DNA of 64,000 nt from Eriocheir sinensis (Eukaryota > Arthropoda > Malacostraca > Decapoda > Varunidae): NCBI RefSeq assembly GCF_024679095.1, contig NW_026111757.1, forward strand, positions 180,001 to 244,000, given 5' to 3'. This document shows positions 18,461 through 64,000 of the stretch, one piece after another (position 1 is the stretch's first letter; each line of letters opens with the position of its first letter). A program made the translations under genes and the position numbers. Below the pieces are notes generated by a model. That model ran no database searches. It was not told the origin of the DNA and saw only the letters and a program-made list of their open reading frames with translations.

Positions 18461-18477
18461 TGTATTGTGTATCTTTA

Positions 18478-19700: not shown

Positions 19701-19704
19701 GAAT

Positions 19705-20141: not shown

Positions 20142-20161
20142 CATGTTTTCTATTAGAAAAC

Positions 20162-20326
20162 ATGAGTACAAATATAACCACCGAATTTTTAGGTTTTAGA
20201 TTTATTAAGATGAAGATATCTAATAAAATGGGCATTTACTACTTTCCACCTTGGATGAAACTCATCAAGAGTGTACAAAGTGAACCCCCATCCCTATTTT
20301 ATAGAATAATAAAATCATTGATTTAA
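20162..20326 (+). CDS. small ORF, arm B copy
   Basis: Same 54-residue frame as 11149-10985, with ATG and stop preserved and one substitution (ISNKMG for IPNKMG). Too short and too little diverged to prove coding. Confidence 0.35.
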   Translation: MSTNITTEFLGFRFIKMKISNKMGIYYFPPWMKLIKSVQSEPPSLFYRIIKSLI

Positions 20327-20389
20327 TTTTTTGTATATATACCCAATATTCCTTCCTTTTTTATTATCCTTGTATCCCGTTATCACAAT

Positions 20390-20655
20390 TACATCCAAAT
20401 AAAACTTCATTTATTCCGTTCTTACCTAACACAGGAAGTACCCTATTGGATGGAAATATGTCACAATGGAACACATTCGAAGAAATGATAAAACTTTTAT
20501 TAATGAAACTAAAAATATGATTTCTAGTGCTGACAGAAAAAATATAATTTTAAGGAGGCAGGTAAATTAACCTTAACAAACTGATGTAAATCAACAAGAC
20601 TGGTCCTCTTCTTATTAGTAGACACATGAAGAATTGTAACATAAGGAGAATTACA
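20390..20655 (-). pseudogene. unknown ORF, arm B copy, frameshifted
   Basis: Counterpart of 10334-10947 without the SINE. One extra base in the A run at 20537-20542 (A6 against A5 in the third copy) shifts the frame. Shows the empty SINE site near 20435-20450. Confidence 0.5.
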
Positions 20656-20699
20656 AATTTGTCTGATACTTTAATTTCCAAGTTCTAGAAGGGTTGATT

Positions 20700-21210
20700 C
20701 TAAATTCTCACATGGTTGACAACTGAAGTGAAAATAACGCAGACGGATATTATAATCGTAGTTCTTTAACTTGTCCACAACACCCCACCCCACTGCTGCT
20801 AATCTGTAGCCTCCCTCCCTCCTCCTCCTCTTAGTTTGAGCCACCCTACCACCCACCCACCCCTCCCTCTTGTTTTTCCAAGTGGGGTCCAGATCTGCAG
20901 GGGGGTCATGACATATAGTGATTCGTAATAAGTCCGAAATTAATTTTGCCACGAGAATGGGGAGAGGGTGGTTGTGACAGCTGTGTAGGTGGTGGTTTAG
21001 GTGGTGGTGGTGGTTTAGGTTAGGTTAGGTGGTGGTGGTGGTTTAGGTGGTGACTCACTCACCACACCCGCCTTAAGCCTCCTACTACTACTACTAAGCC
21101 GCCGCCACGCCACGACCACCCACCCACACCCCACACACACCCCGGTTTAGTTCCGCAATAATTTCAACAATGTATATAAAATGCAAATATATCAGGTAAA
21201 TCTGGACCCA
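20700..21210. other. low-complexity spacer, arm B
   Basis: CCTCC- and CCACC-rich runs, GGTTTAGG / TTAGGTTAGG near 21000-21030, and the AAGTGGGGTCCAGATCTGC motif near 20880. Counterpart of 9700-10230. No gene. Confidence 0.6.
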
Positions 21211-21212
21211 GT

Positions 21213-21806
21213 TTAGCAGGGCCACACACCCACACTCACCACACACACCCACACCGTACTACTAATGGTGACGTAGTATCTCTTATCAACACATGCTAAA
21301 TCACAGGTGTTTTCTAAAGACCACAATCCATCATAAAGATGTTGATCCTCAACAGCTATACAATGTTTTAACATCACCATGTTGTATACAACCATTTCTC
21401 GATATCTAGTGTCTAGAATAACACTCTCATCTGCTTGGAGCACCACATCCAATCCCGGTCCCACATATTGCAACTCGTAACAGAAATGCTCAGGACAGAC
21501 ACGTTCGACACCAACAACGATCTGTATGCATTCTTTCAACCGCAATCCGACGCTTACCTCTGTCAGGTATTCGATGAATTTATCTGCACTGTCTAGGAAC
21601 TTGTACACCTTACCCAAAGTAGGTATGAAATAAACATCCAATTTGACGCGTAATATGTACTCTTCTCTATAGTCCACGCTAACACTAGCGTTGTTGTCCG
21701 TTTTCACATAGTGTCGGTTTTTCTCATATTTGTCACACAAGAGTTCCACTTCTCTTAAGAGCGTTGACTGCTTGCTTTTTAATTTATGTAATGATTCTGC
21801 TTTCAA
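21213..21806 (-). CDS. virus-like protein of unknown function (arm B copy, intact)
   Basis: 197-codon frame, unbroken, whereas arm A has a stop and two deletions. The frame opens at a TTG with no ATG in the first 140 codons, so the real N-terminus may be missing. The C-terminal 15 residues are encoded by GT-rich low-complexity DNA and may not be native. The body (KLDVYFIPTLGKVYKFLDSA, EHFCYELQYVGPG) looks like a folded protein. It is head to head with the gene at 21807. Confidence 0.55.
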   Translation of the reverse strand: MKAESLHKLKSKQSTLLREVELLCDKYEKNRHYVKTDNNASVSVDYREEYILRVKLDVYFIPTLGKVYKFLDSADKFIEYLTEVSVGLRLKECIQIVVGVERVCPEHFCYELQYVGPGLDVVLQADESVILDTRYREMVVYNMVMLKHCIAVEDQHLYDGLWSLENTCDLACVDKRYYVTISSTVWVCVVSVGVWPC

Positions 21807-22383
21807 GTGTATTACGATTTCGATCAGTATTCAGGTGCTGTGTTAGTATCAGCGGTTATGTCCATCTTAGCTCAGGTTGAAGCCGGTCAACGATCAGACC
21901 GCAACATCCTTAGGAGTTTAAAAGCTAGTGATGTTGAAAATCAAATCTTATCCAGGATGAAAAAACAAGGTTGTCCAACGATTAAATTAAATTTTGTCTT
22001 CGGCATAGGTAACACCAACGTGTTACGGTTTCTCGAGAGACGATTCAAACGTTAGTGACGTGTCGGCTTTTGTGGTTGCAGCGGACAAGGCCGCTGAACA
22101 TTTGTAAGCAAATAATTTCGTTCTAAAACCAGGTCCGACATCCACATTTAAAACGACTCACACAAATCACAAGCAAGTAACGACACACACCGTAACCATT
22201 CCGTCGTTTGACCGGAAAGCAATCAACGAGACGACGTCTGATATAACTAGCGCTACATTGACAGTGCAGAAAATCGGAATTCATTGCAAGGATGCAGACA
22301 CACTTGACACTATGCTTGCTGCTGTTAAATCTAACTTGGTGACTTTCTTATTACATTTGGTTATTAATGGAAGTCATGTATAA
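21807..22383 (+). pseudogene. virus-like gene, decayed arm B copy
   Basis: Same gene as 9165-8587. A 2-base deletion (GTGTTACGG here, GTGTGTTACGG in arm A) at about 22020 shifts the frame to an early stop at 22055. Near 22075-22125 a cluster of substitutions, including a stop in the original frame, is not found in arm A. The last 200 bases are again nearly identical. Confidence 0.8.
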
Positions 22384-22499
22384 CCAAGTGCACTTGAAAG
22401 AGTAAGACATTATTTTGTACATTTAAAAAAAAAGGTTAATAAAAATGTAGACTTAGCTTTGGTTTTAAACACCCGAAATGAGTAACACTGATTGAGTTA

Positions 22500-24190
22500 T
22501 ACATTGTAAGCTTCCTAAGATAAAACACACATTCACCTCAATAGAGTTAAGACGATATTGTAAGTTCACAAGACAAAAACTTAAATAACATTCACCAGGA
22601 CTCACAAAGTACAAGAGTGCAAGTGTCATCTAACCTCGATCGAGGTGAATGTGTATTAATCTTTCGAGCTTCTGATTCTGTTACCACTCCAATTAAGAAT
22701 TGGATGCATCACAACAGAAAACACACATTAGCCTTAAGGAATCGAAGTGAATGTGTGTTTTAGTCTTCCGAGCTCTGATTTTGACAATACTGTTACATAG
22801 TATGTAATAGTTGCTTAACACTCAAATTAAGAATTGGATGCATCACAACAGACAAACACACATTCACCTTAATGGAGTTTAGACGACATTCAAATGTCAT
22901 CTAACCTTAACCGAGGTGAATGTGTGTTTTAGTCTTCCAGAGCTTCCGATTCTGTTAACACTCGTATTAAGAATTGGATGCATCACAACAGACAAACACA
23001 CATTCACCTTAATGGAGTTTAGACGACATTCAAATGTCATCTAACCTTAACCGAGGTGAATGTGTGTTTTAGTCTTCCAGAGCTCCGATTCTGTTAACAC
23101 TGTATTAAGAATTGGATGCATCACAGACAAACACACATTCACCTTAATGGAGTTTAGATTCATTGAATGTCATCTCAACTCCATTGAGGTGAATGTGTGT
23201 TTTAGTCTGTAGCGTCCAATTCTAACATATCAGAATCGGACGCTGTGTGACTAACTTTGATAGATATCAGAATCGGACGCTCAGCAAGTCAAACACACAC
23301 ATTAACCTTAATGGACTTTAGATTCTCATTGAATGTCTCTCAACTCCATTGAGGTGAATGTGTGACTTTGTACTATGTAGCGTCCAATTCTAACTTTGAT
23401 AGATATCAGAATCGGACGCTCAGTAAGTCAAATACACACATTCACCTTAACAGAGTTTAGAATGTCGTCTCAACTCCATTGAGGTGAATGTGTGACTTTG
23501 TACTATGTAGCGTCCAATTCTAACTTTGATAGACATCAGAATCGGACGCTAAGTAAGTCAAACACACACATTCACCTTAACAGAGTTTAGATTCTCATTG
23601 AATGTCGTGAGGTGATGATCTCATTGAATGTCGTCTCAACTCCATTGAGGTGAATGTGTGACTTTGTACTATGTAGCGTCCAATTCTAACTTTGATAGAC
23701 ATCAGAATCGGACGCTCAGTAAGTCAAACACACACATTCACCTTAACAGAGTTTAGATTCTCATTGAATGTCGTCTTAACTCCATTGAGGTGAATGTGTG
23801 ACTTTGTACTATGTAGCGTCCAATTCTAACTTTGATAGATATCAGAATCGAACGCTCAGTAAGTCAAACACACACATTCACCTTAACAGAGTTTAGAGTC
23901 TCATTGAATGTCGTCTCAACTCCATTCAGGTGAATGTGCGACTTTGTACTATGTAGCGTCCACTTCTAACTTTAATAGACATCAGAATCGGACGCTCAAT
24001 AAGTCAAACACACACATTCACCTTAACAGAGTTTAGAGTTTCATTGAATGTCGTCTCAACTCCATTGAGGTGAATGTGTGACTTTGTACTATATTGCGTC
24101 CAATTCTGATGTCTGAATGTCGTCTAAACTTCATTGAGGTGAATATATGTCTTTGCCTTACTGAGCGTCCGATTCTACACATCCGAATCA
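22500..24190. repeat. palindromic hr-like tandem array
   Basis: About a dozen units of roughly 75 to 150 bp, each made of two inverted halves: CACACATTCACCTTAA...GTTTAGA and its mirror TC(T)AACTCCATTGAGGTGAATGTGTG. They are separated by spacers containing AGAATCGGACGCTCAGTAAG and its complement CGTCCAATTCT. Whole units can fold as imperfect hairpins of about 30 bp arms. This resembles the homologous regions (hrs) of baculoviruses and WSSV, which serve as enhancers or origins; that role is inference. Arm A has only a vestige (8215-8460). Confidence 0.85.
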
Positions 24191-24714
24191 GATACATTAT
24201 ATTTATAATTTATTAAACTGAACTATATTTTTTGAGCAGTGTGAATTTGAATTTTTTTTTTAAGTATCGAATTTTTAAACACTTCAAAACCAAAGAAATA
24301 TAACTATTTTCATTTAAGAAAAGTTAAATGAGAAAGAAGATTCAAAGTGCAAGCCAAAGTCAGAATTGGACGCTATATGGCACACAGTACCTAGCAACGA
24401 TACAATATTGGACCCCAGTCTTTCTGTTGTATAGGCAAAATGTTGAATTATCCTAAGCTACCATTTTCATCTAAGAAAAGAGAAAATACTCAAGATCCAA
24501 TGTCGATGTGTCCGTTTCAGATATACCAGAATCAGAATTGGACGCTACCCGCTTTCCCTGCTGCATGGGGATTGTGACACATGGCACATACTTAGTAACG
24601 ATACAATATTGGACCCCAGTCTTTCTGTTATAAAGACAAAAGGATAACACTAACAACAACAACAATACAATATTGGACCCCAGTCCTAAATTTGAAATAT
24701 TGGATCAAACCTGG

Positions 24715-25019: not shown

Positions 25020-26710
25020 CCTTATGTGACTTCCAAGCCTGATTCTTAATTTAGTTCGTATTGAATGTCGTCTAACCTTGTGTGAGGTGAATGTGTCTTT
25101 GTCTTCCGAAGCCTGATTCTGAATTTAGTTCGTACTGAATGTCGTCTAACCTTGTGTGAGGTGAATGTGTGTCTTTGTCTTCCGAAGATTCTTATTCTGA
25201 ATTTAGTTCGTACTGAATGTCGTCTAACTTTGTGTGAGGTGAATGTGTGTCTTTGTCTTCCGAAGCTTCCGATTCTGAATTTAGTTCGTACTGAATGTCG
25301 TCTAACCTTGTGTGAGGTGAATGTGTCTTTATCTTCTGAAGCTTCCGATTCTAAATTTAGTTCGTACTGAATGTCGTCTAACCTTGTGTGAGGTGAATGT
25401 GTATCTTTGTCTTCCGAAGCTTCCGATTCTGAATTTAGTTCGTACTGAATGTCGTCTAACCTTGTGTGAGGTGAATGTGTATCTTTGTCTTCCGAAGCTT
25501 CCGATTCTGAATTTAGTTCGTACTGAATGTCATCTAACCTTGTGTGAGGTGAATGTGTGTCTTTATCTTCCGAAGCTTCCGATTCTGAATTTAGTTCGTA
25601 CTGAATGTCGTCTAACCTTGTGTGAATGTCATCTAACCTTGTGTGAGGTGAATGTGTATCTTTGTCTTCCGAAGCTTCCGATTCTGAATTTAGTTCGTAC
25701 TGAATGTCATCTAACCTTGTGTGAGGTGAATGTGTTTCACTATCTTCTGAAGCTTCCGATTATGAATTTAGTTCGAACTGAATGTCGTCTAACCTTGGGT
25801 GAGGTGAATGTGTCTTTGTCTTCCAAAGCGTCCGATTCTGAATTTAGTTCGTACTGAATGTCGTCTACCTTTGATTGAAGTGAATGTGTGTCTTTGTCTT
25901 CCAAAGCGTCCGATTCTGAATTTAGTTCGTACTGAATGTCGTCTACCTTTGATTGAAGTGAATGTGTGTCTTTGTCTTCCAAAGCTTCCGATTCTGAATT
26001 TAGTTCGTACTGAATGTCGTCTAACCTTGTGTGAGGTGAATGTGTATCTTTGTCTTCCAAAGCTTCCGATTCTGAATTTAGTTTGTACTGAATGTCGTCT
26101 ACCTTTGATTGAAGTGAATGTGTGTCTTTGTCTTCCAAAGCTTCCGATTCTGAATTTAGTTCGTACTGAATGTCGTCTACCTTTGATTGAAGTGAATGTG
26201 TGTCTTTGTCTTCCAAAGCTTCCGATTCTGAATTTAGTTCGTACTGAATGTCGTCTACCTTTGATTGAAGTGAATGTGTGTCTTTGTCTTCCGAAGCTTC
26301 CGATTCTGAATTTAGTTCGTACTGAATGTCGTCTAACCTTGTGTGAGGTGAATGTGTATCTTTGACTTCTAAAGCTTCCGATTCTGAATTTAGTTCGTAC
26401 TGAATGTCGTCTACCTTTGATTGAAGTGAATGTGTGTCTTTGTCTTCCAAAGCTTCTGATTCTGAATTTAGTTCGTACTGAATGTCATCTAACCTTGTGT
26501 TAGGTGAATGTGTGTCTTTATCTTCTGAAGCTTCCGATTCTGAATTTAGTTCGTACTGAATGTCGTCTAACCTTGTGTGAGTTGAATGTGTGTCTTTATC
26601 TTCCGAAGCTTCCGATTCTGAATTTAGTTCGTACTGAATGTCGTCTAACCTTGTGTGAGTTGAATGTGTCTTTATCTTCCGAAGCTTCCAATTCTGAATT
26701 TAGTTCGAAT
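25020..26710 (+). repeat. 78-bp direct repeat array (array 2)
   Basis: About 21 units of the same family as array 1. Two subtypes alternate, CTAACCTTGTGTGAGGTGAATG and CTACCTTTGATTGAAGTGAATG. Minus-strand translation of 26450-25740 is stop-free for 236 codons and repeats DDIQYELNSESEALEDKDTH with few changes. Substitutions among units often keep the acidic residues. The right end abuts the gene at 26739. Confidence 0.93.
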
Positions 26711-37804: not shown

Positions 37805-38236
37805 GTGGACATGTTTTCTGTTAGAAAACATGAGTATAAATATAACCACCGAATTTTTAGGTTTTAGATTTATTAAGATGAAGATACCTAATAAAATGGG
37901 CATTTACTACTTTCCACCTTGGATGAAACTCATCAAGAGTGTACAAAGTGAACCCCCATCCCTATTTTATAGAATAATAAAATCATTGATTGATTTTTTT
38001 GTATATATACCCAATATTCCTTCCTTTTTTATTATCCTTGTATCCCGTTATCACAATTACATCCAAATAAAACTTCATTTATTCCGTTCTTACCTAACAC
38101 AGGAAGTACCCTATTGGATGGAAATATGTCACAATGGAACACATTCGAAGAAATGATAAAACTTTTATTAATGAAACTAAAAATATGATTTCTAGTGCTG
38201 ACAGAAAAATATAATTTTAAGGAGGCAGGTAAATTA
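37805..38236 (+). repeat. third copy of part of the inverted duplication
   Basis: About 430 bp, same orientation as 20137-20569 in arm B, from GTGGACATGTTTTCT to GGAGGCAGGTAAATTA. It carries the small ORF (ATG 37830) but a four-base difference near 37990 removes its stop. The empty SINE site is present near 38100-38120. It ends abruptly at the inverted helicase segment, one or two bases before the 84-bp duplication. Confidence 0.9.
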
Positions 38237-38238: not shown

Positions 38239-39659
38239 AACTGAAAAACAGATCGTCCTCGAATCGATGTTCGATCCTAACACAAAATCGGCTTTCTTGA
38301 GTATGTGCATTGAAGGCACCGCTGAGACACGTGGACTCATGATGGCTGAACACATTTCGAGATTGGTGAACTACTCTTCCAATGATATCAACGAACAGAA
38401 TTTCTGGTCAATGTGTGTTAACGAGGAGGAAGAAGACAGGATTGGTCCACCACCGAAGAAGCGACAACAAGTTGACGTAGTAACGTCGGCCTTAATGGCA
38501 CCTGTGTGTTACTGTGTGGACGACGAGAACGCCGTCTCGCTGGAGATCTTCTACGCTCTTGCACTCGATCTCTCCAAAAATCTTAACAACAAAAGTAAAG
38601 TAGATAAACATGTTGCTAAAGCAGTTCAAAAATGTTACAGAGAAGTAGTTGATCAAAAAAACAGGGCTACCTAGACTTCACAGTCTGTATTTTCTGAGAT
38701 GCATGATGAACTTCATGGGTTTCATCAACAATATGTGCACTGGCGACGGAGAAATGGCTCATCACCTTGTCCAAACCATAACATCTATTGGGTTAAACAT
38801 GACTCCAAAAACTGTCGTTGTTTTAGTTGGTTTAGGAAACAACTTAAAATCATCTGTTGTCAACATCGCCAAACATACTTGGTGGGATTCCTACACCGAC
38901 ATGGGTGCAGAAGCGCTGGTTGAAAAGGATGATTGTTCTTCATCTGATGCTAAATTGGCTTATGTGGCTGGCAAGAAACAAATATTCGTCATCGAAGAGG
39001 TCGGGTATCAGGGATCGTACAATCATAACAATGCTAAAAAAACAGTCAAAGCTACAGTTGATGGTGCAGGGGTAACTGCTGATGCCAATAGGATGGTAGC
39101 CTATCGGTTGTGGTCGCGAGTGTCTCAGCGAGTAATTGGTAATAACCACGACAACACCAATCTTAATAATAACAACAATAACAACAATGATGATGATGAC
39201 GACGACGACGATGATGATGAGGAATTAACGTTACCACAACCACATCATGAGTTTCCTGATATTATAAGTGGCATGTCTCAAGTAGTCATGTGGTGGAATT
39301 TAAATTTAGGTTCCGTCATTTTTAAGATGTCTAAAGAAAAGAGTTTAAACAGTATAATCTCCATGGGAGAAATACCGTATAGTATACATTCTCCTGAACT
39401 GTTGGATACATCAAAATGGTTTCAAGACACTGATCCTTTACTTCGCAATTCAAAGATCATAGAAGATCATCTTGCAATGCAAGTAGATGAAGAGCAGTGG
39501 CCTAGTTTATCTTCATCGGAAAGAGTAGGACGTTACCTTAACATCATTCGCAAAGATACTTCAAATCAACTAAGACCTTTTGCAGACTGTGTCAAACACT
39601 TCAAGCGTTTATTAATCTTATTCGCAGCCAAAGCAACAGATGATAATGATGTACAATAA
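38239..39659 (+). pseudogene. SF3/D5-like helicase, C-terminal part in an inverted segment
   Basis: Open from 38239 to 38674 and, after one base in an A7 run (38655-38661), in another frame to 39659. The second frame has a P-loop-like VLVGLGNNLKSSVVNIAKHT with the GxGNNxKS pattern of superfamily-3 and D5 helicases, then KKQIFVIEEVG as motif B. A low-complexity Asn/Asp insert follows (39160-39220). Such proteins drive replication forks in many large DNA viruses. The N-terminal part lies at 42530-41844 on the opposite strand, and 84 bp are shared by both ends. The SF3 assignment rests on the motifs only. Confidence 0.6.
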
Positions 39660-41022: not shown

Positions 41023-41115
41023 AGACGTCCGTCAGTTACATCGTCTGAAACTGTGAACGGTTCATGTTAAAATCACGCGCTGAACATCTGAGAAATATAA
41101 CCAATCAAGGATTTT

Positions 41116-41691
41116 ATGAATATGAATACTGTAACTATGTTGGTACTCGCATTGCTAGTAATTGTTGTTGCGGTCATGTTGGTGTCCGGCATGGCAACGA
41201 GGCAGACATACATCAAGAAAGCACACATTGATACTTCACCCATCGGGGTTCCCGTGTCCGTCTCCTTCAATGCTAAGGCACCAGTTGTCGTCAAGGATGT
41301 ATTTGCTTCTCCATTGGGTGAAATCGCCATCCTGTCAACTGATGCTGAAGTCGAAGCTAATAAATCAGATGTTGTATTCCAATTTGTGCCTGTGACACCC
41401 GTATATGCTGACACTCTACCTCAAGAATTGTGCATGGTCAAGATTTACAACAGAACCAAACACGATCTTCACTTTTCAGGTGGATACACTGACTTGAACG
41501 TCAGCACTGTTGGAATAAATTCAGTTATATCTCCAGCCAATAGTTTGGACAATAACTCATCATTGTCTTCCACTGTCGTCGTCGCTGGAGAGTCAAAAGT
41601 AACTTACTTTGCTAGAATTAAGAACGAAACTTTGATCAGCAAACATATTATCGTAATGAACCATTTGTACGTCACTCGTCACATTCATTAA
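41116..41691 (+). CDS. VP24/VP26/VP28-like envelope protein
   Basis: 191 residues from ATG 41116, intact. Residues 6-27 are a membrane anchor (VTMLVLALLVIVVAVMLVSG). The rest looks like an all-beta domain with VVVKDVFASPLGEIAIL, CMVKIYNRTKHDLHFSGG and VTYFARIKNETL segments. WSSV major envelope and tegument proteins VP24, VP26 and VP28 have the same size (about 205 residues), the N-terminal anchor and a single beta-barrel. Which member it is closest to cannot be told by eye. In virions these proteins form the outer shell. AATAAA follows the stop at about 41704. Confidence 0.55.
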   Translation: MNMNTVTMLVLALLVIVVAVMLVSGMATRQTYIKKAHIDTSPIGVPVSVSFNAKAPVVVKDVFASPLGEIAILSTDAEVEANKSDVVFQFVPVTPVYADTLPQELCMVKIYNRTKHDLHFSGGYTDLNVSTVGINSVISPANSLDNNSSLSSTVVVAGESKVTYFARIKNETLISKHIIVMNHLYVTRHIH

Positions 41692-44574: not shown

Positions 44575-44745
44575 TCAAACACATGTTCACCTCACACAAG
44601 GTTAGACGACATTCAGTACGAACTAGATTCAGAATCGAAAGCTTCGGAAGACAAAGACACACATTCACCTCACACAAGGTTAGACGACATTCAGTACGAA
44701 CTAGATTCAGAATCGGAAGCTTCGGAAGACAAAGACACACATTCA
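44575..44745 (-). repeat. 78-bp repeats, two units
   Basis: Two units of the array 1/2 family in reverse orientation (AGAATCGGAAGCTTCGGAAG, ACAAAGACACACATTCACC). They abut the C-terminal acidic tail of the gene at 44743-45474. Confidence 0.92.
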
Positions 44746-45474
44746 CCTATTAGCATCATCATCGTCGTCATTCTCCTCCTCCTCCTCCTCCTCTTCGGAA
44801 GTTGAAGAGTCATCATGCCGGCGTCGCCGCCGCTGGTGTTCTTCGTCTCCGAATCCTCCTACCTATTTTTTCTTGGTGTAATTCCACCATCGATTTTTTA
44901 ACGAGTCAGCTGCCTGCGGGGGCAGATTAGCCACCCCACCAGTGGGAGAGAGACAATGCATCATGAAGTAATAAGCGCTCTGGAACATACCCGTTGTGAA
45001 AAACGACATTTTTTCAAGTGATAAAATAGAATGGAGATAGCGAGTCAACATTAGCAGGTTGTCGTGACTTATTGGTAACTTAGAGACATCAACGGAATTG
45101 GGAAGATAGACGATATCATCTGCTTGTTCGTCTCGGATGGGCATGTTCATCGTTTTGTGCTCAACGATAGATTTTAAAGCTTTGATTAATTCTCGACGCT
45201 GAGATTCAATGGTTTGATTTTTGTTATGTCCTTCTCCTTTCTTATTGCTCTTCTTCTCAAAGGCTATGGCATTTTCAAGGATGTTAATATTGACGTCTAT
45301 GAGTAAGTTTCGAATACTAGGTAATCGACCATCACCTCTGTACTTGTCGTGGACGAACCGCATCACTCTACTCAACACGTGAATGGCATCGGCACTGGTG
45401 TATTTCCCTCCGCCTCTATTGTCCAACAAGTCTAAGATTCTCGGACAGAAAAGAGTGGTGATGTGTTCCTTCAA
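44743..45474 (-). pseudogene. virus-like protein with internal amber stop before an NLS-like tail
   Basis: Open on the minus strand from about 45474 (no ATG until residue 38; the 5' end runs into the repeat array at 45480) to TAG at 44865-44863. In the same frame after the TAG a further 39 codons follow: GGFGDEEHQRRRRRRHDD, then a Glu/Asp run, ending at TGA 44745-44743. The basic-acidic tail looks genuine, so the TAG is probably a nonsense mutation. Function unknown. Confidence 0.55.
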
Positions 45475-51060: not shown

Positions 51061-51147
51061 TTACTTACAAGTCCGCATGACCTTTGGTGACGTAAGCTGC
51101 CAGGGGCGTTGACCACACTTGAAGTCCGCATGACCTTTGGTGTTCAT
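51010..51147 (+). repeat. 53-bp triplicate at a gene end
   Basis: Three partial copies of AAGTCCGCATGACCTTTGGT followed by GACGTAAGCTGCCAGGGGCG. The third copy is the coding end of the minus-strand gene (51061-51501), so that gene's end was duplicated in tandem. Confidence 0.9.
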
Positions 51148-51502
51148 CAAAGGAAACTTACTGGCGTCTGAATGGACGTCAATGAAACAAACATGTTTAG
51201 CACCAGGCGAGCAGAGGTCGTATTCACTTTGATTCAATCTGTCTATCAGGAACGACATTGACTCTAAAGTATTATCGTTAACATTTCTGTCAAACAACAA
51301 TCTCGAATCAATTTGGAAGTTAATAAAGAAATTCAGACTAGCATAAATTTCTTTAGCTGTGTCGGTGATATCTGATTCTCCTGAAAGCATCATGTCGACG
51401 AGTCTGTTACGAATGACAACTTTACAATGCCACGCGAATGCTTTGTGTAAGTATGTACTGTAACATGGTATAGCACCTAAAAGGGTAGAGAGTTGTTCCA
51501 TC
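51061..51502 (-). pseudogene. virus-like gene, 3' half, cut off by a retrotransposon
   Basis: Minus-strand frame of 146 codons. The apparent start (ATG 51501-51499) is not a true start: it lies in the 5-base target duplication of the BEL element and matches the codon at 57408-57406 in the other half, in phase. The reading (HKAFAWHCKVVIRNRLVDMM, RLLFDRN) looks like a soluble protein. The end runs into the 51-kb triplicate, so the native C-terminus is uncertain. No family recognised. Confidence 0.75.
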
Positions 51503-52551
51503 TGTCAAAAATTTATTTGACAGGGAATAATAAAAAATAAAACTACAAAAAAAATGGGAGTAATTATAAGAAAAATGCTACTCCTACTTAGAGGAGAGGA
51601 CTAGATTGCACAGCTAACAGCAACAACAAAAATGCTACTCCTACTTACGAGGAGAGGACTAGATTACACAAGTAACAAATACAAAATAAGTTAACCAGCA
51701 AACTAACTTAAATAAAACGATGCTTCAAAGAGCTGCTTCGAATAGCGCTTCAGAGTGCGAGGGAAGGCAGCGAGAGAGGAAGCGAGCCTGTCAGAGGCAG
51801 CAGCTTATAGCTATTGAAAGAAGACGGGTCGGCGCTGGTTGTGATCCACCGTCGGGCTCGATATTTACTTAGACACGGCAAGCAGTCGACGCCCTGATTT
51901 CTACTACTACTACTGCCGGGATACAATACTGCTCCCGCATCACCAGCCTTACCAGATACGGCGAGCAGACACGACGCCCGGGACTACTATACTGCTACTA
52001 CAACTAGGTTCGTCGATCAACAATACTGCTGCCTGTCATTAACACCCTGATGGTTACAGCTAAGTACCTTTCTAGCATTAATCCTAATTTGGCCAAATAG
52101 GTGAGGTGTTAGGAGGGGAAAGAAATACGCACGACTCACGAGAATCGGAGACGTTGCGTATGGAATACTGTACGTACGTGGGGTGAGTCATAACGTCCAC
52201 GCGACAGAAGGGCAGTAAAGTGTTCGGCACCACGAATAAGCGGTGTCGTTACGGAGCATGAAAACAACAAACCTCAGGTAAATTATATCAATAGTTCAGA
52301 ATCACCTGAGGTTGTCATGCTAAAATAAATTAACTTTCACAACAATTCACTAAATCATTACGTTTCGCCCTTTTCAGTGGTTTGTTTAGGGTACGAGGAC
52401 AACATTCAAATAACTGGAATCCATCTCCCTTTTATGTGAGTAGAAACCTGAACACCTTTTTATAAACCCAGCATTTAACTGTGAGCCACACCTACGAAGG
52501 TGAGGGGATTTCAGAGGGTTTACCCCAATAAGTGGCTATATATTTTCCACA
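51503..52551 (+). repeat. 5' LTR
   Basis: 1049 bp, TG...CA ends. Differs from the 3' LTR by a few substitutions and small indels (for example around 52160-52185 and 52105-52115), which suggests a fairly recent insertion. Contains a tandem pair of ATGCTACTCCTACTTA motifs at about 51574 and 51631. Confidence 0.95.
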
Positions 52552-52562
52552 GTTAAAATTAA

Positions 52563-52580
52563 TGGTCCTTCGAACCGGAT
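52563..52580 (+). promoter_or_regulatory. primer-binding site
   Basis: Reverse complement ends in CCA and contains the T-arm core GGTTCGA, as a tRNA 3' end does. The position, 11 bases after the LTR, is usual. The tRNA identity cannot be set by eye. Confidence 0.85.
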
Positions 52581-52600
52581 TTCCAGTTGTTTGAATTGTA

Positions 52601-53140
52601 ATGAGTTACAGGGTTGTTATTGGAGGTCATTCGCAGGTTCCTAACTTTATACCAGCCCTTCAAGATACAGAAATTGGAATCTGTAAAGTAAATGGCGGAA
52701 AACTTAAAGATTTTTGGGAGCATTCACGATTCCATGTAATGCGGGAAGATGAACACGACTTAGCCATTCTGTTCTTGGGCGGCAATGACGTTTATGATGG
52801 CTGCAGTCCTCGGGAACTAATTAATGAGATACTTCGAATCACTGACCACCTTCAACAACTTAATAAACGAGTGGCTGTCACATTACTGGAGCCTCGACAT
52901 TACAGTAATTGTAATAGATTTGGAGTTAGTCCTACAACTTATAATAAGGTTTCAAAGGCAATTAATAAAGGTTTGTGGAAAAGTTTAAAGAACAAGAACA
53001 TTCGAACCATCAACTTGGGAGCGAAACCCTTTGCAACAGGACACACAGCTGATGGTGTGCACTTTGAGCCACTAACAAAATTCTACATTGCTTCAAAATT
53101 CAGGAACTGTGTTGAGCACCACCTTAATAAAGCAACTTAG
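52601..53140 (+). CDS. SGNH-hydrolase-like ORF of the retrotransposon
   Basis: 179 residues from ATG 52601, intact. Has the SGNH signature blocks: GGHSQ near residue 8 (block I, nucleophile Ser), LFLGGNDVYDG near residue 66 (block III, GxND) and DGVHFEP near residue 157 (block V, DxxH). Such esterase-like domains are known in ORF1 of some CR1-type LINEs; one upstream of gag in a BEL element is less usual. Enzyme activity is inferred from the motifs. Confidence 0.75.
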   Translation: MSYRVVIGGHSQVPNFIPALQDTEIGICKVNGGKLKDFWEHSRFHVMREDEHDLAILFLGGNDVYDGCSPRELINEILRITDHLQQLNKRVAVTLLEPRHYSNCNRFGVSPTTYNKVSKAINKGLWKSLKNKNIRTINLGAKPFATGHTADGVHFEPLTKFYIASKFRNCVEHHLNKAT

Positions 53141-53160
53141 ATTTAATATAACAACAATGA

Positions 53161-56100
53161 CTGACTTCTATCGAACAGTGTAAAAGATCCTTGCAAGCCT
53201 TTAAAGGCCACATAACAAGAGCCATCAACAACTGCAATTCGATTATCTCAAGTGAAACTATAGATATAGATAAATTGGAAACATCAATTTCTTTCCTCGA
53301 GAGAAAGTGGCCTGGGTATGAAGAAGCTTACATGAGTTTAGAAGCAACAATGATAGCTTCTGATGTGGGATCTGACACGAGTTCGGAGCAAGAAGAATAC
53401 TATACAGTTTGGGAGAACTATCAAGACAATTTGGCGAAATTTAAATCTCGCTTACGAAACCTTGGTGAGAACCCAAAGAATGAAGCTCCCAGAGTAGGCA
53501 CTATGGCAATACCAAAGCTGCCCATAATTAAATTGCCAACGTTTTCAGGCGACTACACTGAATATGAATCCTTTTTTGATCAGTTTCAGGCCCAAATCGG
53601 GAAACGAAGTGACTTAGAGCCAGTAACCAAATTACAGTATTTAAAGTCTCAATTAAAAGGCAGTGCACTAGACTTAATTAAGAATATTCCATCTCTTGAT
53701 GTTAACTACCAGCACGCTGTTGATGCTTTAAAGGAAGTTTATGGAGATGGGGAAAGGATTAAAAGAGGCATCTTGAGTAAAATTCTAGATCTTGCATCTC
53801 CTACTAACAGCAGGAATGATCTTGAGTCCTTTAGAATATCTTTAATAAACTTAACAAGGGCACTGAAAGACAAAACAGACTACTCGGACTGCGAGTGGAT
53901 AATAGCCTTCATGTTCCAACGTAAGCTTCCTAAAGCAGCTATTCATCAACTCTACCTAAAATATGGTAAGAACTATTTTTCTATAGAGGAGATGACAGAT
54001 GGCCTAAAGCATCTAGTATCTCACATGGACATAGAAGATGGACAGGTGAGCAAGAAGTCAAAGGATAATAATACTTCAACGAATGAGAAACAAAATGCAA
54101 AAATTGATATTGGAACGTATTCCTATCACAAAGGAACTGATCAAGCTAAACCTAAATCAAAGGTAAACCTTCAGAACAAAGGAAAATGTGTATGTCTGTA
54201 CTGCAGCGGTCGACACTATACAAGTGAATGTGAAAATTATGCTACAGTGGCAACGAGACAATCTCGCTTGATGGAATTAAACCGATGCAGTAGATGTGTT
54301 AGTACACAACACAATGCAGACAATTGCAATATGGTGTTACTAGACTGCAAAAGATGTCATAAAGGTAAACATCATACCGCACTGTGTGTTTCCAAGGTTA
54401 AAGGCAGGAGTAGTAGTGTTCAAGAAGAACGTCCTCAAACCACACAGCAAGCTGTCATGTCAGTTAAAGGCAAAGTGAAGTCTAGATCAACAGCACTTCC
54501 CACAGCAACCATAGAAGTTCGCAATGAACATAGCAAACAAAAACTATATACCAGAGCGTTCTTTGACCAAGGATCTCAGTGCACTTTTATCAAAGAAGAC
54601 TTGGTTAAGAAGCTACAGTTGAAGATAAGTGGGAAAGTTAGACTGGCTATGTCTGGGTTTTTACATTCAAAGGATTATGAAGAGTATAACTTGGTACGCC
54701 CGGTTGTTCGTCTTGATAACAGGCTTAAAAGAATAACTGCCGTAGTAGTTGAGCGGCTCCCAGAAAAAAATCAGTGTGCCAGGACTAACCAGAGTTACAA
54801 AGATGTTGAAGGAGGCTGGGCTTGATCTTGCGGACAAACATTTGACTAGTGATGTAATAGATGGAATAGAACTTGTCATAGGTGGAGACTTCTACGGAGA
54901 ATTTATCACAGGTCTCGCAACTTACTCTCAAACTCGACTGAGTGGAAGCCCTGGAGGGTATTTAATATATGGACAGATTCCTAATAACGAAACAATCTTC
55001 AGAAAATTCACAGAATGCACTGGTGGCCAGATTGTGTATCCAACCAGATCCTACGGAGATCAAACAGCTGATGGAAGAAACTGAGGTGGAAATCCATAAA
55101 CTGTGGGATTTAGACACCATAGGAATTGATACCCAGAAACCTCCACCAGATGACTGTTTGGCATACCAAGATTATCTAGATTCTGTACAGTTCAAAGGAA
55201 ATAAGTACTTCGTCAGGCTGCCATGGAAATTGAATTGCCCTAAACTTCCCAGCAATTTTTCTATGGCGTTAGGACAGCTGAAGAGTTTAGCAAATACCCT
55301 GGCGGCACGAAATGAAGTTGAAGTTTATCATGATCTGATTCAGACTCAATTAGAGAATGATTTCATTGAGATAGTTCCAGCAGCATCTCCGACAGATCAG
55401 TGCCACTATCTCCCTCATCACGGGATTAAGAAAGATAGTGCTACAACTCCCTTGCGTATTGTATTCAACTGCAGTGCCAAGAGGAGCGGCCAACCGTCTC
55501 TAAACGACTGCCTATTGAAAGGACCCTCCTTAACTGAAAAACTAGGCGACGTATTGCTAAGATTCAGAACTAACAAGTACGCATTCAGTGCAGATATAAG
55601 TAAAGCCTTTCTGAGAGTAGGATTACAAGAGTGTGATAGAGATTTCACAAGATTTCTGTGGTATGAAAATCCGCAGAATCTTAGTTTTCCTCCAGTTACA
55701 TATCGGTTCAAGTCGGTGTTATTTGGAGCAACCTGTAGTCCATTCCTCTTGCAAGCTACCATAGATTACCATCTAAGGAACTCTGACAATATTTACAAAA
55801 CTCTAATAAGCCAGAACCTCTACGTGGACAACTTTCAAGGGACAGTTGATTGCCAACAACGACTATTTGATGTTTACGAAAATGCAAACATGGAATTAGC
55901 CAGGGCTAATCTTCCCCTGAGGGTGTGGGTCTCTAATAATGCGGCCCTTAATAGTAGAATTGCGGAGGATTTTGAAGATTATACAGTTCCATCTTCTGCT
56001 AGCGTATTGGGTCTATACTGGGATGTTCAGAATGACGAGCTAAGTATCAAACCACCTGCTTTTGTGGACCACAGTTCCCTTAGCAAGAGGAAATTATTGT

Positions 56101-56261
56101 CTCTGATATCTTCAGTATCTGACCCGCTTGGGTTACTAGCACCAATTCCCATCAGGGGAAAATTACTAGTAAAAGAAGCCTGGCAAATGAAGCGTGGTTG
56201 GGACGAGCCTTTGCCTCCCTCCTTTACAGAGGAATGGCTGAAATTAAAAGTGATTTCTTGA
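53161..56261 (+). pseudogene. gag-pol of BEL/Pao element, frameshifted
   Basis: Gag-like region from about 53161 (ATG 53157 is in another frame) with the DUF1759-type core (YESFFDQFQAQIGKRSDL, LKGSALDLIKNI) and two Cys/His knuckles (54190-54400). A DUF1758/aspartic protease-like part follows (FFDQGSQCTFIKEDLV, the DxGS type). The frame shifts at about 54800 and again near 55020, then runs to 56261 with reverse transcriptase motifs (DISKAFLRVGL, FGATCSPFLLQAT, LYVDNFQG). The catalytic motif is YVDN rather than YVDD, a variant I believe occurs in BEL elements. No RNase H or integrase before the 3' LTR. Confidence 0.9.
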
Positions 56262-56355
56262 AAGCAGACACCTCAGTAGTGAGAATGGATTATTGTAAAT
56301 ATTGTAAAATTACTGTACATGACAATGGGTTAAAGTATTTCCTTCGCGGGGAGGA

Positions 56356-57404
56356 TGTCAAAAAAAATTTTGACAGGGAATAATAAAAAATAAAACTACA
56401 AAAAAAATGGGAGTAATTATAAGAAAAATGCTACTCCTACTTAGAGGAGAGGACTAGATTGCACAGCTAACAGCAACAACAAAAATGCTACTCCTACTTA
56501 CGAGGAGAGGACTAGATTACACAAGTAACAAATACAAAATAAGTTAACCAGCAAACTAACTTAAATAAAACGATGCTTCAAAGAGCTGCTTCGAATAGCG
56601 CTTCAGAGTGCGAGGAAGGCAGCGAGAGAGGAAGCGAGCCTGTCAGAGGCAGCAGCTTATAGCTATTGAAAGAAGACGGGTCGGCGCTGGTTGTGATCCA
56701 CCGTCGGGCTCGATATTTACTTAGACACGGCAAGCAGTCGACGCCCTGGATTTCTACTACTTACTGCCGGGATACGTCAAACTACAATACTGCTCCCGCA
56801 TCACCAGCCTTACCAGATACGGCGAGCAGACACGACGCCCGGACTACTATACTACTAACAACTAGGATTCGTCGATCAACAATACTGCTGCCTGTCATTA
56901 ACACCCTGATGGTTACAGCTAAGTACCTTTCTAGCATTAATCCTAATTTGGCCAAATAGGTGAGGTGTTAGGGAAAGAAATACGCACGACTCACGAGAAT
57001 CGGAGACGTTGCGTATGAAGCAGTACTGTACGTGTGGTGCGTCATAACGTCCACGCGACAGAAGGGCAGTAAAGTGTTCGGCACCACGAATAAGCGGTGT
57101 CGTTACGGAGCATGAAAACAACAAACCTCAGGTAAATTATATCAATAGTTCAGAATCACCTGAGGTTGTCATGCTAAAATAAATTAACTTTCACAACAAT
57201 TCACTAAATCATTACGTTTCGCCCTTTTCAGTGGTTTGTTTAGGGTACGAGGACAACATTCAAATAACTGGAATCCATCTCCCTTTATGTGAGTAGAAAC
57301 CTGAACACCTTTTTATAAACCCAGCATTTAACTGTGAGCCACACCTACGAAGGTGAGGGGATTTCAGAGGGTTTACCCCAATAAGTGGCTATATATTTTC
57401 CACA
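56356..57404 (+). repeat. 3' LTR
   Basis: 1049 bp copy of 51503-52551. Preceded by the purine tract at 56348-56355 and followed by the CCATC target duplication. Confidence 0.95.
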
Positions 57405-58011
57405 CCATCACCATGATATCGCATAGATGTTGACGCGACAAACATTCTTCGAGTTTGCGACGCGTGTTAAGAACATCGCGCATACGCTGATCGATATCTA
57501 CTACACCACCATCATCATCTTCTGCAACAACGTACAACCGATCGCTCTGTCGTGTCAACAGTTTTGCCACAGATTATTGAATGGTTCCGTTTTCCGAAAT
57601 CGTCACTTCTACAGGTGGGGTTAGAATCAGGGTGTTGAGCGTGTCCGTTATGTTGATTCTCTTTCAAGTAACTTAACAGTTTGATGAGAGAAGCCAATCT
57701 TACGTGCTTGTGCTTGAATCTGTCAACATTGAGAGTAACACAGCGTAATATGTTGACAATTCATCCATAGCTTGTTCAGAATATGCAGTTCTAGGTTCAT
57801 TAACAAGACTAGGAGGTACGACCGTAGCCGTAGTATTTGTGTTAGTTGCAACATTTTCTTCGTCTAATTTTCTCTTCTTAGACTGCACCGCCGTCAGACA
57901 ATCAGTCGTTGATTTGGCTTTCATCGTCTTGTGATCGGATATAGCTATTACATTACCAATGTTATTTCTGATAAAAGATTTCATGGAGTGAATCAAGGAA
58001 AAGTTATCCAA
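57405..58011 (-). pseudogene. virus-like gene, 5' half, cut off by a retrotransposon
   Basis: Minus-strand coding: first frame from about 58011 (first ATG near 57984, MKSFIRNNIGNVIAIS, with an SKKRKLDEE basic patch) to 57700. It then continues in other frames (57697-57620, HNGHAQHPDSNP) and from 57570 to the retrotransposon (LEECLSRQHLCDIMV). A TAA in frame just before 57570 and at least one frameshift show decay besides the insertion. Its 3' half is at 51502-51061. Its 5' end is within 50 bases of the p53-like exons on the other strand. Confidence 0.65.
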
Positions 58012-58059
58012 GGATTTCCTGTAACTTTGAGTACATTTGTATTTGTGTTAGTGTTACAG

Positions 58060-58515
58060 ATGGTACAGTACTGGGACGCGACGTGTTTCACTTGCGGATT
58101 TGTGCTTGTCCGACACGAGATTTAAAGACAGACGAACAAGCTAACTCTAAGAAGAGAAGATTAAAACGCAAAAGATATTCAACTGAGACTCAGGTAAATG
58201 TCCAGACTAGATAAATGTTATATTTTATTGAGATGAAACATTATTATTATTATACGAATCTTCAAATTTCTTTCTTGTATTTTCAGATCGCAAAATACCA
58301 AAACGAGTTGACCCAGAGCCTCATGTGTCCAACTTAAATGAAGTTTACAACATTAAGGTAAAGATTTAAAAAAAAAATAAGTAGGAGTGGAGATAAGCTT
58401 CTATACGAGTTGCATTTACATTTTATCTAATCATAATCTCCCATTCTAGGTAGTTGGACGTCAGTTGTACTTGTTCATGATGAAGATCATGAGTTTTACT
58501 CCAGCACCCACCTGA
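58060..58515 (+). pseudogene. p53: p53-family gene, last DNA-binding exon and tetramerisation exons
   Basis: Block 1 (58060-58193), after a T-rich tract and TTACAG, reads DGTVLGRDVFHLRICACPTR then DLKTDEQANSKKRR. That is the end of the p53 DNA-binding domain (LGR..F..RICACP.RD), keeping the Arg and two Cys of the RxCxCP motif, followed by a basic nuclear-signal-like stretch. A GTAAAT...TTTCAG gap leads to block 2 (58287-58357, NLNEVYNIK). A GTAAAG...TTCTAG gap leads to block 3 (58450-58515, VVGRQLYLFMMKIMSF, stop). Blocks 2 and 3 resemble the tetramerisation domain, split where, as I recall, vertebrate p53 also has an intron. The phase between blocks 1 and 2 does not match, so the copy is decayed or a splice site is misplaced. 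Confidence 0.65.
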
Positions 58516-58959
58516 ACATTCCTGACGCTCCATGTCAACAAAACGAAAACACGATGGTACACCAAGAGCAGGATGTGCTCATGAGAAACATGTATTCTAA
58601 TAATCTGAAGAAGCTCAAAGAAAAGCTGAAGAACTTGAGAGAAGAAAGCAAACAGGGGAGTGAGCAGAAAAGCATCGAAATTATAGAAATAGAAAGCCCA
58701 GAAAACTCAGAAAAAGAAAAACAGGGAAGCCCAGAAAATACAGAAAAAGGAAACACTAAAAAAAAGAAAACAATCCTATAGAAGAACCACTAAACCTAAT
58801 CAAAGACAACAACCCTATAGAAGAGCCACTAAACCTAATCAAAGATAACAAACCTGTATCATTACGTACGGTGAAAAGAAACAAACCATATCGTCACATT
58901 CCATTTGTACATGTCACAAGGGAACCTCGAGAACCTCTTGTTACTCTCAAGAAATTCTG
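58450..58959 (+). pseudogene. charged coiled-coil reading frame downstream of the p53-like exons
   Basis: In another frame of block 3, coding-like sequence runs from about 58452 (VVLVHDEDHEFYSSTHLNIP) through a Lys/Glu coiled coil (MYSNNLKKLKEKLKNLREES) to 58781. There an A8 run (58758-58765) precedes a further frame ending at 58959 with a duplicated (N)NPIEEPLNLIKDN motif and PLVTLKKF. It could be the C-terminal part of the same host gene by alternative splicing, or a second gene. Not recognised. Confidence 0.4.
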
Positions 58960-59685
58960 AGTTAAGTAACACATGTATGTAAATAGGGTTTAGCTAAAGT
59001 AGGGTCCAATATTTTAAATATATTTTTCGAAACGTTTTTAAAGTGTTATTATATAAATGTGTTTGAACAAAGTTAAACGGAAAAGAAACTTGCACATAGT
59101 TTGTGCAAGAAACTGGGGTAAGGATATGCAAAGAGTTTGTCACAGGCAGGATCTACACACAGTTTAACCGGAGAAGAAACTGGGGTCAGGATTTGCACAG
59201 AGTTTGTCAGGTGGGTTCAAGATTTGCACAGTTTAACTAGTCCCTGTTAAATTTGTTTCATAACACACATGTATATAATTATGGTATTTTTATTTAATAA
59301 AAAAGTATACTGTTCTGCATCTCAATCCTTCTTCAACTATATCTAGACAATACTGACAGCAAGGAATAATGGTGACTTAAGATCTTCATCAAAGTTTGTA
59401 GAGATCTTCATCAAAGTTTGTAGAAATAAGTCAGTATCGTGCACAGAAACACATTCGAGTATAGACGACATTTACGCTATCACGTTCTTAACCTTCTAAG
59501 AAGGCTCCGGGTGAATATGTGTTTTAGTCTTGAAGCGACATTCAGATCAATTGTAAATTATGCATTACATGTAGCGTGTCCACACTGAGATCTTTCAAAT
59601 CAACTGCAAGAACTAAAAGTTAATTCGAACTACAACTACAAGTCACGGACACACTTTGACATTTAATTTACTTAATTGGAGTGTT
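58960..59685. other. non-coding with short imperfect repeats
   Basis: Two to three copies of GAAACTGGGGT(A/C)AGGAT(A/T)TGCA and GCACAGAGTTTGTCA at 59108-59235; a tandem GATCTTCATCAAAGTTTGTAG pair at 59380-59420; one diverged hr-like half near 59500. No gene. Confidence 0.6.
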
Positions 59686-59689
59686 AACG

Positions 59690-60720
59690 AATCGGAAGCT
59701 TCGAAAGAAAAAGACACACATTCACCTCACTTAAGGTTGGACAACATTCAGTACGAACTAAATTCAGAATTGGAAGCTTCGCAAGACAAAGACACACATT
59801 CACCTCAATCAAGGTTAGACCACATTTAGTAAGAATTAAATTCAGAATCGGAAGCATCGGAAGATAAAAACACACATTCACCTCACACGAGTTAGATTAC
59901 ATTTAGTACGAACTAAATTCGGAATTGGAAGCTTCGCAAGACAAATACACATATTCACCTCAATCAAGGTTAGACCACATTTAGTACGAACTAAATTCAG
60001 AATCGGAAGCATCGGAAGAGAAAAACACACATTCACCTCATTCAAGGTTAGACAACATCCAGTACGAACTAAATTCAGAATTGGAAGCTTCGCAAGACAA
60101 AGACACACATTCACCTCATACAAGGTTAGACGACATTCAGTACGAACTAGATTCAGAATCGGAAGCTTCAGAAGACAAAGACACGCATTCACCTCACACA
60201 AGGTTAGACGACATTCAGTACGAACTTTAAAGTCAGAATTGTAAGTCAGTGTGTTACTGGTTTGCATACCTCATGTGTACATCTCTCTATGTAGATCCTA
60301 ACTCCACTCTGTGGTTAACATAATACTTCAAGACATAGACACATATTCACCTCAATCAAGGTTAGACGACATTTAGTACGAACTGAATTCAGAATCGTGA
60401 CATTTTCAGAATCGAAAGCATCGGAAGATAAAAACACACATTCACCTCACACAAGGTTAGACTACATTCAGTATCACCTCACATAAGGTTAGACGACGAC
60501 ATTCAGTACGAACTAAATTCAGAATCGGAGGCATCGGAATACAAAAACACACATTCACCTCACACATTCAGAATTGGAAGCCTCTCAAAACAAATACACA
60601 CATTCACCTCACACAAGGTTAGACGACATTCAGTACGAACTAGATTTAGAATTGAAGCTTCATAAAACAAATACACACATTCACCTCACACAAGGTTAAA
60701 CAAAATCGGAAGTTCCGGAA
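59690..60720 (-). repeat. 78-bp repeat array, inverse orientation (array 3)
   Basis: About 11 diverged units of AATTCAGAATCGGAAGC, TTCGCAAGACAAAGACAC, ACATTCACCTCA and AAGGTTAGACGACATTCAGT, opposite in direction to arrays 1 and 2 and more degenerate, with partial deletions near 60250-60350 and 60500. Confidence 0.9.
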
Positions 60721-62541: not shown

Positions 62542-62674
62542 TAATCTACGTGCTTATCATTCGTTTTCTTTACAAGTCGGCCGAGTTAATGTTCTATCCG
62601 TTTGAAAACGCTGCTTCACAATCCGATGAGGGTGCATTCTCAGCATATGTGACGGGTTACCTCCCGTGGTCATA

Positions 62675-64000
62675 ATGTCCGCGCCCTTCACGACCGAGTG
62701 TGCCTTCAGAGCTTGGAGAGTCGAACAGAACGATGGTAACAACAGCAGTATCATACCCATCCTATCCTTGATTGATCATACGTACTTCAAAAATTATTCT
62801 TGGCAATCTTTAAACGAGATGGAAGCTAGATTGAAATCAAAATTGAACCTGCTTTCCAGTGGAAGTAGATTGTGTAACAAAGGAGGCAAAGGTGGAGGAG
62901 TAGGGTTGAGTAATTTGAGGTCAGTACGTAACCACGAGAAATATATACCATATGGCGGTGTACAGATGGACGGTTCAAGAGTGGAGAGATGTCCGACCAA
63001 ACGAATTGTAACGCGCATGGGTAACATGAAAGTACCGTGCAACGCTTTTGAAATTCTCTCCGAATTTCCTAAACTCGAAATACTGGGACCGAATGGGATT
63101 GGTAGTCAATCGCTGTTGAACGAAGCAACTTTTGGACAAGGAATTAATAGAGTTGACAATGGTAGGTTCTTGGGTTACGTGACATGCTACATTGACAAAA
63201 TGGTTAACATCTATCCTCCTGCCACCTTGCAGAACGAATTTGATTTGATTGTTAAGATCGTCGAGAGGTTTCTTTTTGAAGCTAATCATAAAGTGTTAGC
63301 GAGAGATATGGTTACACAAGTAGGACAAAATTACATCAACGGTTTGATTTCACAGCATCTCGATTTAGAAACGAGAAAATTTGGTGGGATGGTGTTAAAA
63401 CCTGCTGTGCCCATTCTCACAGGATCTTCTGATGAAACTTCAACAGCAGCAGCAACATCATTAGATAATTTGGATACCGTCTCTGACCTTCCGTTACGAG
63501 TAACGGCGGTGGCGTCTTTCCACAACAACACCAAGAACAAGTCATCTAACAACATTCATCCATTTATGAATTTAAAATTCGATAAATTAGAATTGTCTAA
63601 GTCAGTTCGTCGAAATAATTTTTTGAAGAATTACATTCAGGTTGTAAGAGATTTTAAATTGGGTATTCTACCTGCTGACATATCCAGAGAAATAGAAATC
63701 GTTTCTTTGAATGACTCGAATGTAGCTTGCGTCGTGACACCATTAGGTCTTCATGTCGCATTGGTGGCTAGTAAACTTATAGTTTACCCGCGTCAGTACC
63801 AATTCGAAAACGTGTTCTGTTCGGAGGGAAAACAACATAGCCTTGTTTTTAATCCTAGTACGTCCAAGTGGAGTAGCGGGTGTAGCATCAACTTTAACAT
63901 CTTTAAAATCCATGACGTTACTTGCATCGCATTTTGTTTTAACTATAAAAAACTAAATTCAGAATCGGAAGTATCGGAAAACAAAAACACACATTCACTT
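62675..64000 (+). CDS. long virus-like protein, runs off the window, least truncated of three copies
   Basis: From ATG 62675 (MSAPFTTECAFRAWRV) the frame is open for 442 codons to the last base. It has a Gly-rich stretch near residue 85, a soluble central part, and from residue 282 the segment duplicated at 11170-11563 and 19748-20141. At 63948-63953 an A6 run lets the frame pass into the acidic 78-bp repeats (LNSESEVSENKNTHS), where the arm B copy has A5 and a stop. The repeats may therefore be a real C-terminal domain. I do not recognise the protein; it lacks membrane segments. Confidence 0.7.
   Translation, partial: MSAPFTTECAFRAWRVEQNDGNNSSIIPILSLIDHTYFKNYSWQSLNEMEARLKSKLNLLSSGSRLCNKGGKGGGVGLSNLRSVRNHEKYIPYGGVQMDGSRVERCPTKRIVTRMGNMKVPCNAFEILSEFPKLEILGPNGIGSQSLLNEATFGQGINRVDNGRFLGYVTCYIDKMVNIYPPATLQNEFDLIVKIVERFLFEANHKVLARDMVTQVGQNYINGLISQHLDLETRKFGGMVLKPAVPILTGSSDETSTAAATSLDNLDTVSDLPLRVTAVASFHNNTKNKSSNNIHPFMNLKFDKLELSKSVRRNNFLKNYIQVVRDFKLGILPADISREIEIVSLNDSNVACVVTPLGLHVALVASKLIVYPRQYQFENVFCSEGKQHSLVFNPSTSKWSSGCSINFNIFKIHDVTCIAFCFNYKKLNSESEVSENKNTHSL

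Follow-up and report, generated by a model that had tools for sequence, protein, structure and literature searches.

Endogenous nimaviruses of decapods are large, multicopy elements (22 to 477 copies in a haploid genome, according to PMC10871703) that carry captured host genes, some of which retain introns. The captured genes described include those for BIR proteins, innexin and HSP70 and, in Nimav-1_LVa, those for CHH, a Bax inhibitor and semaphorin (PMC10871703, PMC7016691). A second point of comparison is the p53 of shrimp, for which silencing of the full-length form led to higher virus load and mortality, while silencing of a truncated isoform (LvDeltaNp53) had the opposite effect; the truncated isoform works against full-length p53, to the benefit of WSSV, and a dominant-negative action was suggested by the authors (PMC5374463). 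The DNA analysed here is a stretch of 64,000 nt from the Chinese mitten crab, Eriocheir sinensis (contig C1531, positions 180001-244000, of a 1.77-Gb assembly in 2158 contigs), hereafter the window. It holds a piece of a p53 gene, with two introns, inside an element that is repeated in the crab genome. In size, copy number and possession of an intron-bearing host gene this element resembles the endogenous nimaviruses (PMC10871703, PMC7016691). It differs from them in that p53 goes unmentioned in the main text of the nimavirus papers searched, and in that no nimaviral core gene could be recognised within the window.

An earlier note, made from the sequence of the window alone, had read three p53-like blocks with splice-like borders at 58012..58515; the decapod source that it assumed is correct. 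Pfam and PDB searches, and a comparison with the crab's own p53 gene, confirmed the blocks, while their limits needed correction at both ends: position 58012 lies in intron-like sequence preceding a splice acceptor, the first exon starts at 58060, and the p53-derived part extends beyond 58515. Exon borders (A, 58060-58193; B, 58287-58357; C, from 58450) were set from the sequence together with the host gene. The piece is organised as follows:

58060..58193, plus strand: exon A, the end of the p53 DNA-binding domain and a linker; two bases and then 44 codons, with an AG acceptor before it and a GT donor at its end
58194..58286, plus strand: intron 1 (GT-AG), at a position identical to that in host p53; dinucleotides intact in 19/19 copies
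58287..58357, plus strand: exon B, encoding a linker and the first tetramerisation strand; the window copy is out of frame here, and host exon B finds its best match here
58358..58449, plus strand: intron 2 (GT-AG); host p53 has an intron at the same point of its tetramerisation region; dinucleotides intact in 19/19 copies
58450..58778, plus strand: exon C, tetramerisation helix and a lysine/glutamate-rich tail; early frame break in the window copy, with a stop after 21 residues
58760..58957, plus strand: open frame with an end like the host p53 C-terminus (58892-58927 against the host C-terminal peptide)

Exon A alone matched the Pfam P53 model with an E value of 2.1e-7; the absence of p53-family similarity, which the earlier note had named as fatal to its reading, is therefore not the case. 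A PDB search with the joined exons gave p53 chains (E 2.6e-6 for the best), and exon A was 63% identical to host p53 over 41 amino acid positions and 76.7% identical over 116 nucleotide columns (E 3e-19). A p53 DNA-binding domain as such is not present, the piece covering positions 166-192 of the 193 in the model, and an upstream exon was not found in the window. The claim of the earlier note that upstream p53 exons are missing thus held: when the window was searched by tblastn with human p53 and part of p63, the next-best matches had E values of 3.6 and 7.5. No N-terminal transactivation region was detected in the window with this human p53 query, the region being poorly conserved. Exon A is not preceded by a start codon in its frame.

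Taken alone, the tetramerisation part is weakly identified. In Pfam it found none of the tetramer families (E ≤ 10), and the same stretch in the letters of P0002 (LOC126994685, a database protein of E. sinensis) found symplekin only in the PDB, at E 1.2. When this P0002 stretch was aligned with the human p63 and p73 tetramerisation domains, it scored above all 2017 window segments, with 6 and 0 of 5000 shuffles reaching the score; against the human p53 domain, the score was reached by 61 of the 2017 window segments and by 111 of the 5000 shuffles. The identity of the tetramerisation part is secured by homology to the crab's own p53. Positions 58437-58512 correspond to 6169-6245 of the host locus (L009), with 79% nucleotide identity (E 9e-13), and peptides of exon B, exon C and the C-terminus of the host gene each found their best match at their own place in the window, in collinear order (single E values of 0.007-0.01; 8e-4 for B and C together). 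For the C-terminus, the best match in the window was 58892-58927 (67% over 12 residues, E 0.007). The nucleotide homology to the host exon and the collinearity of the host peptides show a tetramerisation domain to be present in the piece. P0002 matched exon B, exon C and the tail, with 99% identity over 58491-58778. Two structure predictions had mean pLDDT values of 38.6 and 61.7, too poor for use.

The host p53 gene, whose presence elsewhere in the assembly the earlier note had left to be checked, was found on contig C52 (L009). It matched the DNA-binding-domain model from 26 to 192 in three exon pieces, and it has the tetramerisation exons and the C-terminus. The piece in the window is of host origin and shares with this gene the order of the exons, the places of both introns, the tetramerisation exon and the C-terminus; it differs in lacking the upstream exons, in its shorter introns, and in being ∼77-79% identical in the matching exons. 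Its introns showed no match to those of the host. Other p53-family matches in the assembly were two divergent paralogues, each with its own exon A (L010 on C28 and L011 on C8), and a match over model positions 31-185 with two TGA codons inside (L012 on C59).

A search of the assembly with the Pfam P53 model gave at least 58 matches, these and the following counts being lower bounds. Sorted by the range of the model matched, at least six were of host type (three on C52, the others on C28, C8 and C59), at least 34 were of the window type (window included), and at least 18 were of a second type, which belongs to a second repeated element. Eighteen of the at least 33 other window-type copies were checked: nine with long flanks, eight short stretches, and L008. 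The segment corresponding to window positions 57975-58975 was present in all 18, at 97.9-99.7% identity, and 57405-59680 was contiguous in the eight long-flank copies examined (96.9-98.5%). The junction at 57982-58059 had no segregating site among nine copies. This shared junction, with the same neighbour in copy after copy, indicates that the p53 piece is a standing part of a repeated element, rather than host flank or an assembly join.

Most copies have kept usable frames. Counting the window copy, exon A was open in 19 of 19, exon B in frame in 16 and exon C open over at least 100 amino acids in 17, with all three exons usable in 15; the GT-AG dinucleotides of both introns were intact throughout. 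The window copy itself is frame-broken in exons B and C. Mean pairwise substitution divergence was 0.39% (18 copies). Among nine copies, exon A showed no substitutions, and π was 0.0054 for exon B, 0.0046 for exon C with its tail, 0.0047 for the neighbouring virus-like gene, 0.0024 for each intron and 0.0097 for the stretch to the right; indels per kb numbered 5.4 in exon C against 1.4 in the virus-like gene. Selection is not evident among these copies, the exons being not clearly more conserved than their surroundings. Between the host gene and the captured piece, dS was 0.44 and dN 0.18 for exon A (26 codons), and dS 0.77 and dN 0.27 for exon C (22 codons), values that come from few codons and in which constraint on the host gene is mixed in. 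Since dS is large and exceeds dN, while the copies lie only 0.39% apart, the capture long predates the amplification that gave today's copies, and the frame outlasted the capture.

Some copies had features of their own. In L026, exon A has an in-frame deletion of 15 bases (117 instead of 132 bases). On six contigs (C1384, C1531, C1771, C1783, C1992 and C71) the p53 piece occurs at least twice, with copies in some cases 58-133 kb apart, as if elements lay close together or the piece were carried more than once per element. The copy at C1992:75743 carries the residue that distinguishes P0002. The RefSeq model LOC126994685 starts near 81.87 kb of C1992, ∼6 kb from the p53 exons, and its first exon is joined by splicing directly to exon B, so that exon A is left out. 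Neither that first exon (C1992, ∼81.76-81.87 kb; L039) nor the DNA in which it lies found a match in the window. A protein search for relatives gave P0002 alone, and one with a lengthened query (6 candidates) gave nothing.

The p53 piece lies within a varied neighbourhood, the main features of which are:

51064..51502, minus strand: open frame across the retroelement from 57405, which it joins directly in copies that lack the retroelement
51503..57404, plus strand: BEL/Pao LTR retrotransposon, with LTRs at 51503-52551 and 56356-57404 and a target duplication (CCATC) at 51498-51502 and 57405-57409
57405..57984, minus strand: 5′ part of a divergent virus-like gene, frame-broken, with a start codon at 57984; its first open piece has no Pfam match
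59689..60245, no strand assigned: array of 78-bp tandem repeats to the right of the p53 piece
62630..64000, plus strand: long open frame of the element, on its right side, for which no homologue was found

The first ATG of the virus-like gene (57984) lies 75 bases from exon A, on the opposite strand, and the frame at 51064..51502 probably continues this gene. The two parts are split by the BEL/Pao insertion, recognised from its LTR pair, a Pao peptidase (Peptidase_A17, E 1.7e-12), DUF1759 (E 2e-21), a reverse transcriptase (RVT_1, E 2.5e-5, below its cut-off), the 5-bp target duplication and the presence of empty sites. Of nine other copies with the left flank, six showed an empty site with the 5-bp target and one (L025) carried the insertion; in the remaining two (L014 and L024) it was absent and a different arrangement, common to both, lay left of ∼51455. 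The insertion does not explain why p53 exons are missing, for they are likewise absent from copies that never show it. The two LTRs differ by 14 substitutions over 1037 aligned bases (1.35%), more than the π of the element copies (0-0.97%, depending on the region), although the insertion is present in just one of the nine other copies; gene conversion among copies might explain this excess.

Arrays related to the 78-bp repeat also lie to the left of the p53 piece (18466-19710, 25041-26707 and 44579-44748). Positions 63519-63912, in the right-hand open frame, are repeated at 11170-11563 with 99.5% identity. The element contains a large inverted duplication (7681-11563 and 19748-24711, 96-99%), and short dispersed copies of the end of this duplication occur at 37805-38104 and 63519-63912 (98-99.5%). 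The left end of the window resembles host DNA, with an endonuclease domain of reverse-transcriptase type encoded at 4744-5427 on the minus strand and a stretch, 2435-2715, that is also found next to a copy of the second element (96.5%). Two guesses at gene identity, an ORF at 41107-41688 as a virion envelope protein and an ORF at 38649-39656 as a helicase, found no support in searches and were dropped.

Eight of the at least 18 loci of the second element were read (L015-L020, L027 and L028, on C1998, C2094, C660, C1, C40, C1828, C1350 and C295), and they have kilobases in common with one another at about 95-99.5%. Their p53 piece is only 168-171 bp long, comprising exon A and ∼38 bp of host intron. 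The second element is a different one, which two short matches make appear related to the first: a short ORF in DNA adjacent to L030 is similar to window 12605-12729 (E 2.5e-8; 74% over 27 columns, with a further matching stretch), and 115 bp of L027 match the window at 77%. Given this relatedness, and the presence of the same exon in both, the p53 exons might all descend from one old capture, with that of the second element either renewed from the host or slow to evolve. This we consider rather unlikely: in the second element, exon A and the adjoining intron match the host at 90.6-93.6% identity, and the eight loci read show no further p53 exon, while exon A of the first element stands at 76.7% and its introns are unlike those of the host. 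The much greater closeness to the host of the exon in the second element favours a separate capture, which was probably also the later of the two.

The origin of the piece can be set out with more assurance. The earlier note had offered two readings, in one of which viral DNA had become joined to the 3′ half of a host p53-family gene, and in the other a p53 piece was carried along with the viral block; the second stood and the first fell, the piece having the same neighbour in 18 of 18 other copies and the host gene lying elsewhere. That the viral block inserted into host p53 and broke it, or that the junction is an assembly error, would fit the presence of 3′ exons only and of a virus-like gene abutting them. 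An assembly error near 58012-58060, which the earlier note had named as a way in which its reading might fail, does not account for a junction found unchanged in every copy checked (invariant at 57982-58059 in nine). The copies in the genome contradict both of these explanations, to which we attach hardly any probability. The preferred account is that a large virus-like DNA element would have acquired the 3′ half of the host p53 gene in the form of genomic DNA (the final exon of the DNA-binding domain, the exons for tetramerisation and the C-terminus, two introns included), and that this piece, 75 bases from one of the element's own genes, would then have been carried into at least 34 copies. 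Capture and amplification of the p53 piece are highly probable, and the account as a whole, leaving aside any antagonism of p53, is likely to be correct.

There is a good likelihood that the element is a virus. It might otherwise be another kind of giant mobile element or a repeated host segment, an unlikely alternative that draws on the searches: the 37 ORFs of the window matched no viral family in Pfam, the one ORF taken to a protein search (62675-64000) found no homologue, and five window queries plus P0002 found no relative among viral contigs. Against it, the ORFs are many and lie on both strands, which fits endogenous nimaviruses, as do the tandem arrays, the copy number in the tens and the captured host gene with its introns (PMC10871703), and one ORF of the window has an AAA_34 helicase-type domain. 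A number of at least 34 copies fits these viruses too, and is consistent with them rather than diagnostic. Nimaviral core genes were not recognised in the window by Pfam, protein or viral-contig searches, which concerned very divergent sequences and were run without reference nimaviral proteins as queries. Nimaviridae are characterised by particular sites of insertion, namely the telomere repeat, 28S rDNA or AT repeats, and by defined ends. On the whole, the inferred virus is probably a relative of the nimaviruses. Captured host genes are known in these, p53 going unmentioned in the main text of the papers searched for it.

If transcribed, the captured exons would give a p53 without a DNA-binding domain, which could assemble with host p53 and weaken it. 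Tetramers of host p53 should be weakened by a product that is able to assemble but not to bind DNA. A role as p53 antagonist is a tentative proposal, more doubtful than not. Standing against it are the want of an in-frame start before exon A, the skipping of exon A in the database model, exons not clearly more conserved than their surroundings, and a tetramerisation domain that went unrecognised alone. About as likely is that the piece is an inert passenger, captured by chance, copied along with the element, and open mainly because its copies are young. This explanation, to which we give somewhat less than an even chance, agrees with a mean difference of 0.39% between copies, with four of 19 copies already frame-broken, with exons not clearly more constrained than what surrounds them and with the missing start codon. 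It agrees less well with the large divergence from the host (dS 0.44-0.77), in spite of which most copies read through three exons and all intron borders are kept; a long past without constraint should have broken the frame before the copies spread, which counts against a passenger.

The closest parallel to the antagonist proposal is LvDeltaNp53, like the crab piece a p53 shortened at its 5′ end that keeps the oligomerisation domain, and proposed to act as a dominant negative on full-length p53; it differs in being a host splice form with a DNA-binding domain, nearly all of which the crab piece lacks (PMC5374463). As full-length p53 restrains WSSV in shrimp and the truncated isoform favours it (PMC5374463), a virus-borne p53 stripped of its DNA-binding domain yields a prediction that is specific and testable. 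No report of virus-borne p53 was found in the titles and abstracts of the papers listed. DNA viruses attack p53 with unrelated proteins, and are not known to carry a piece of p53 itself. A lineage of large crustacean DNA viruses may have made a p53 antagonist out of host p53's tetramerisation half, with a related virus taking the same exon again in a repeated, arms-race capture, although this extended version is improbable. The piece shows gene capture at the DNA level with introns retained, apparently twice from the same host exon, and, if the antagonist proposal is true, the element might interfere with p53, a key defence factor.
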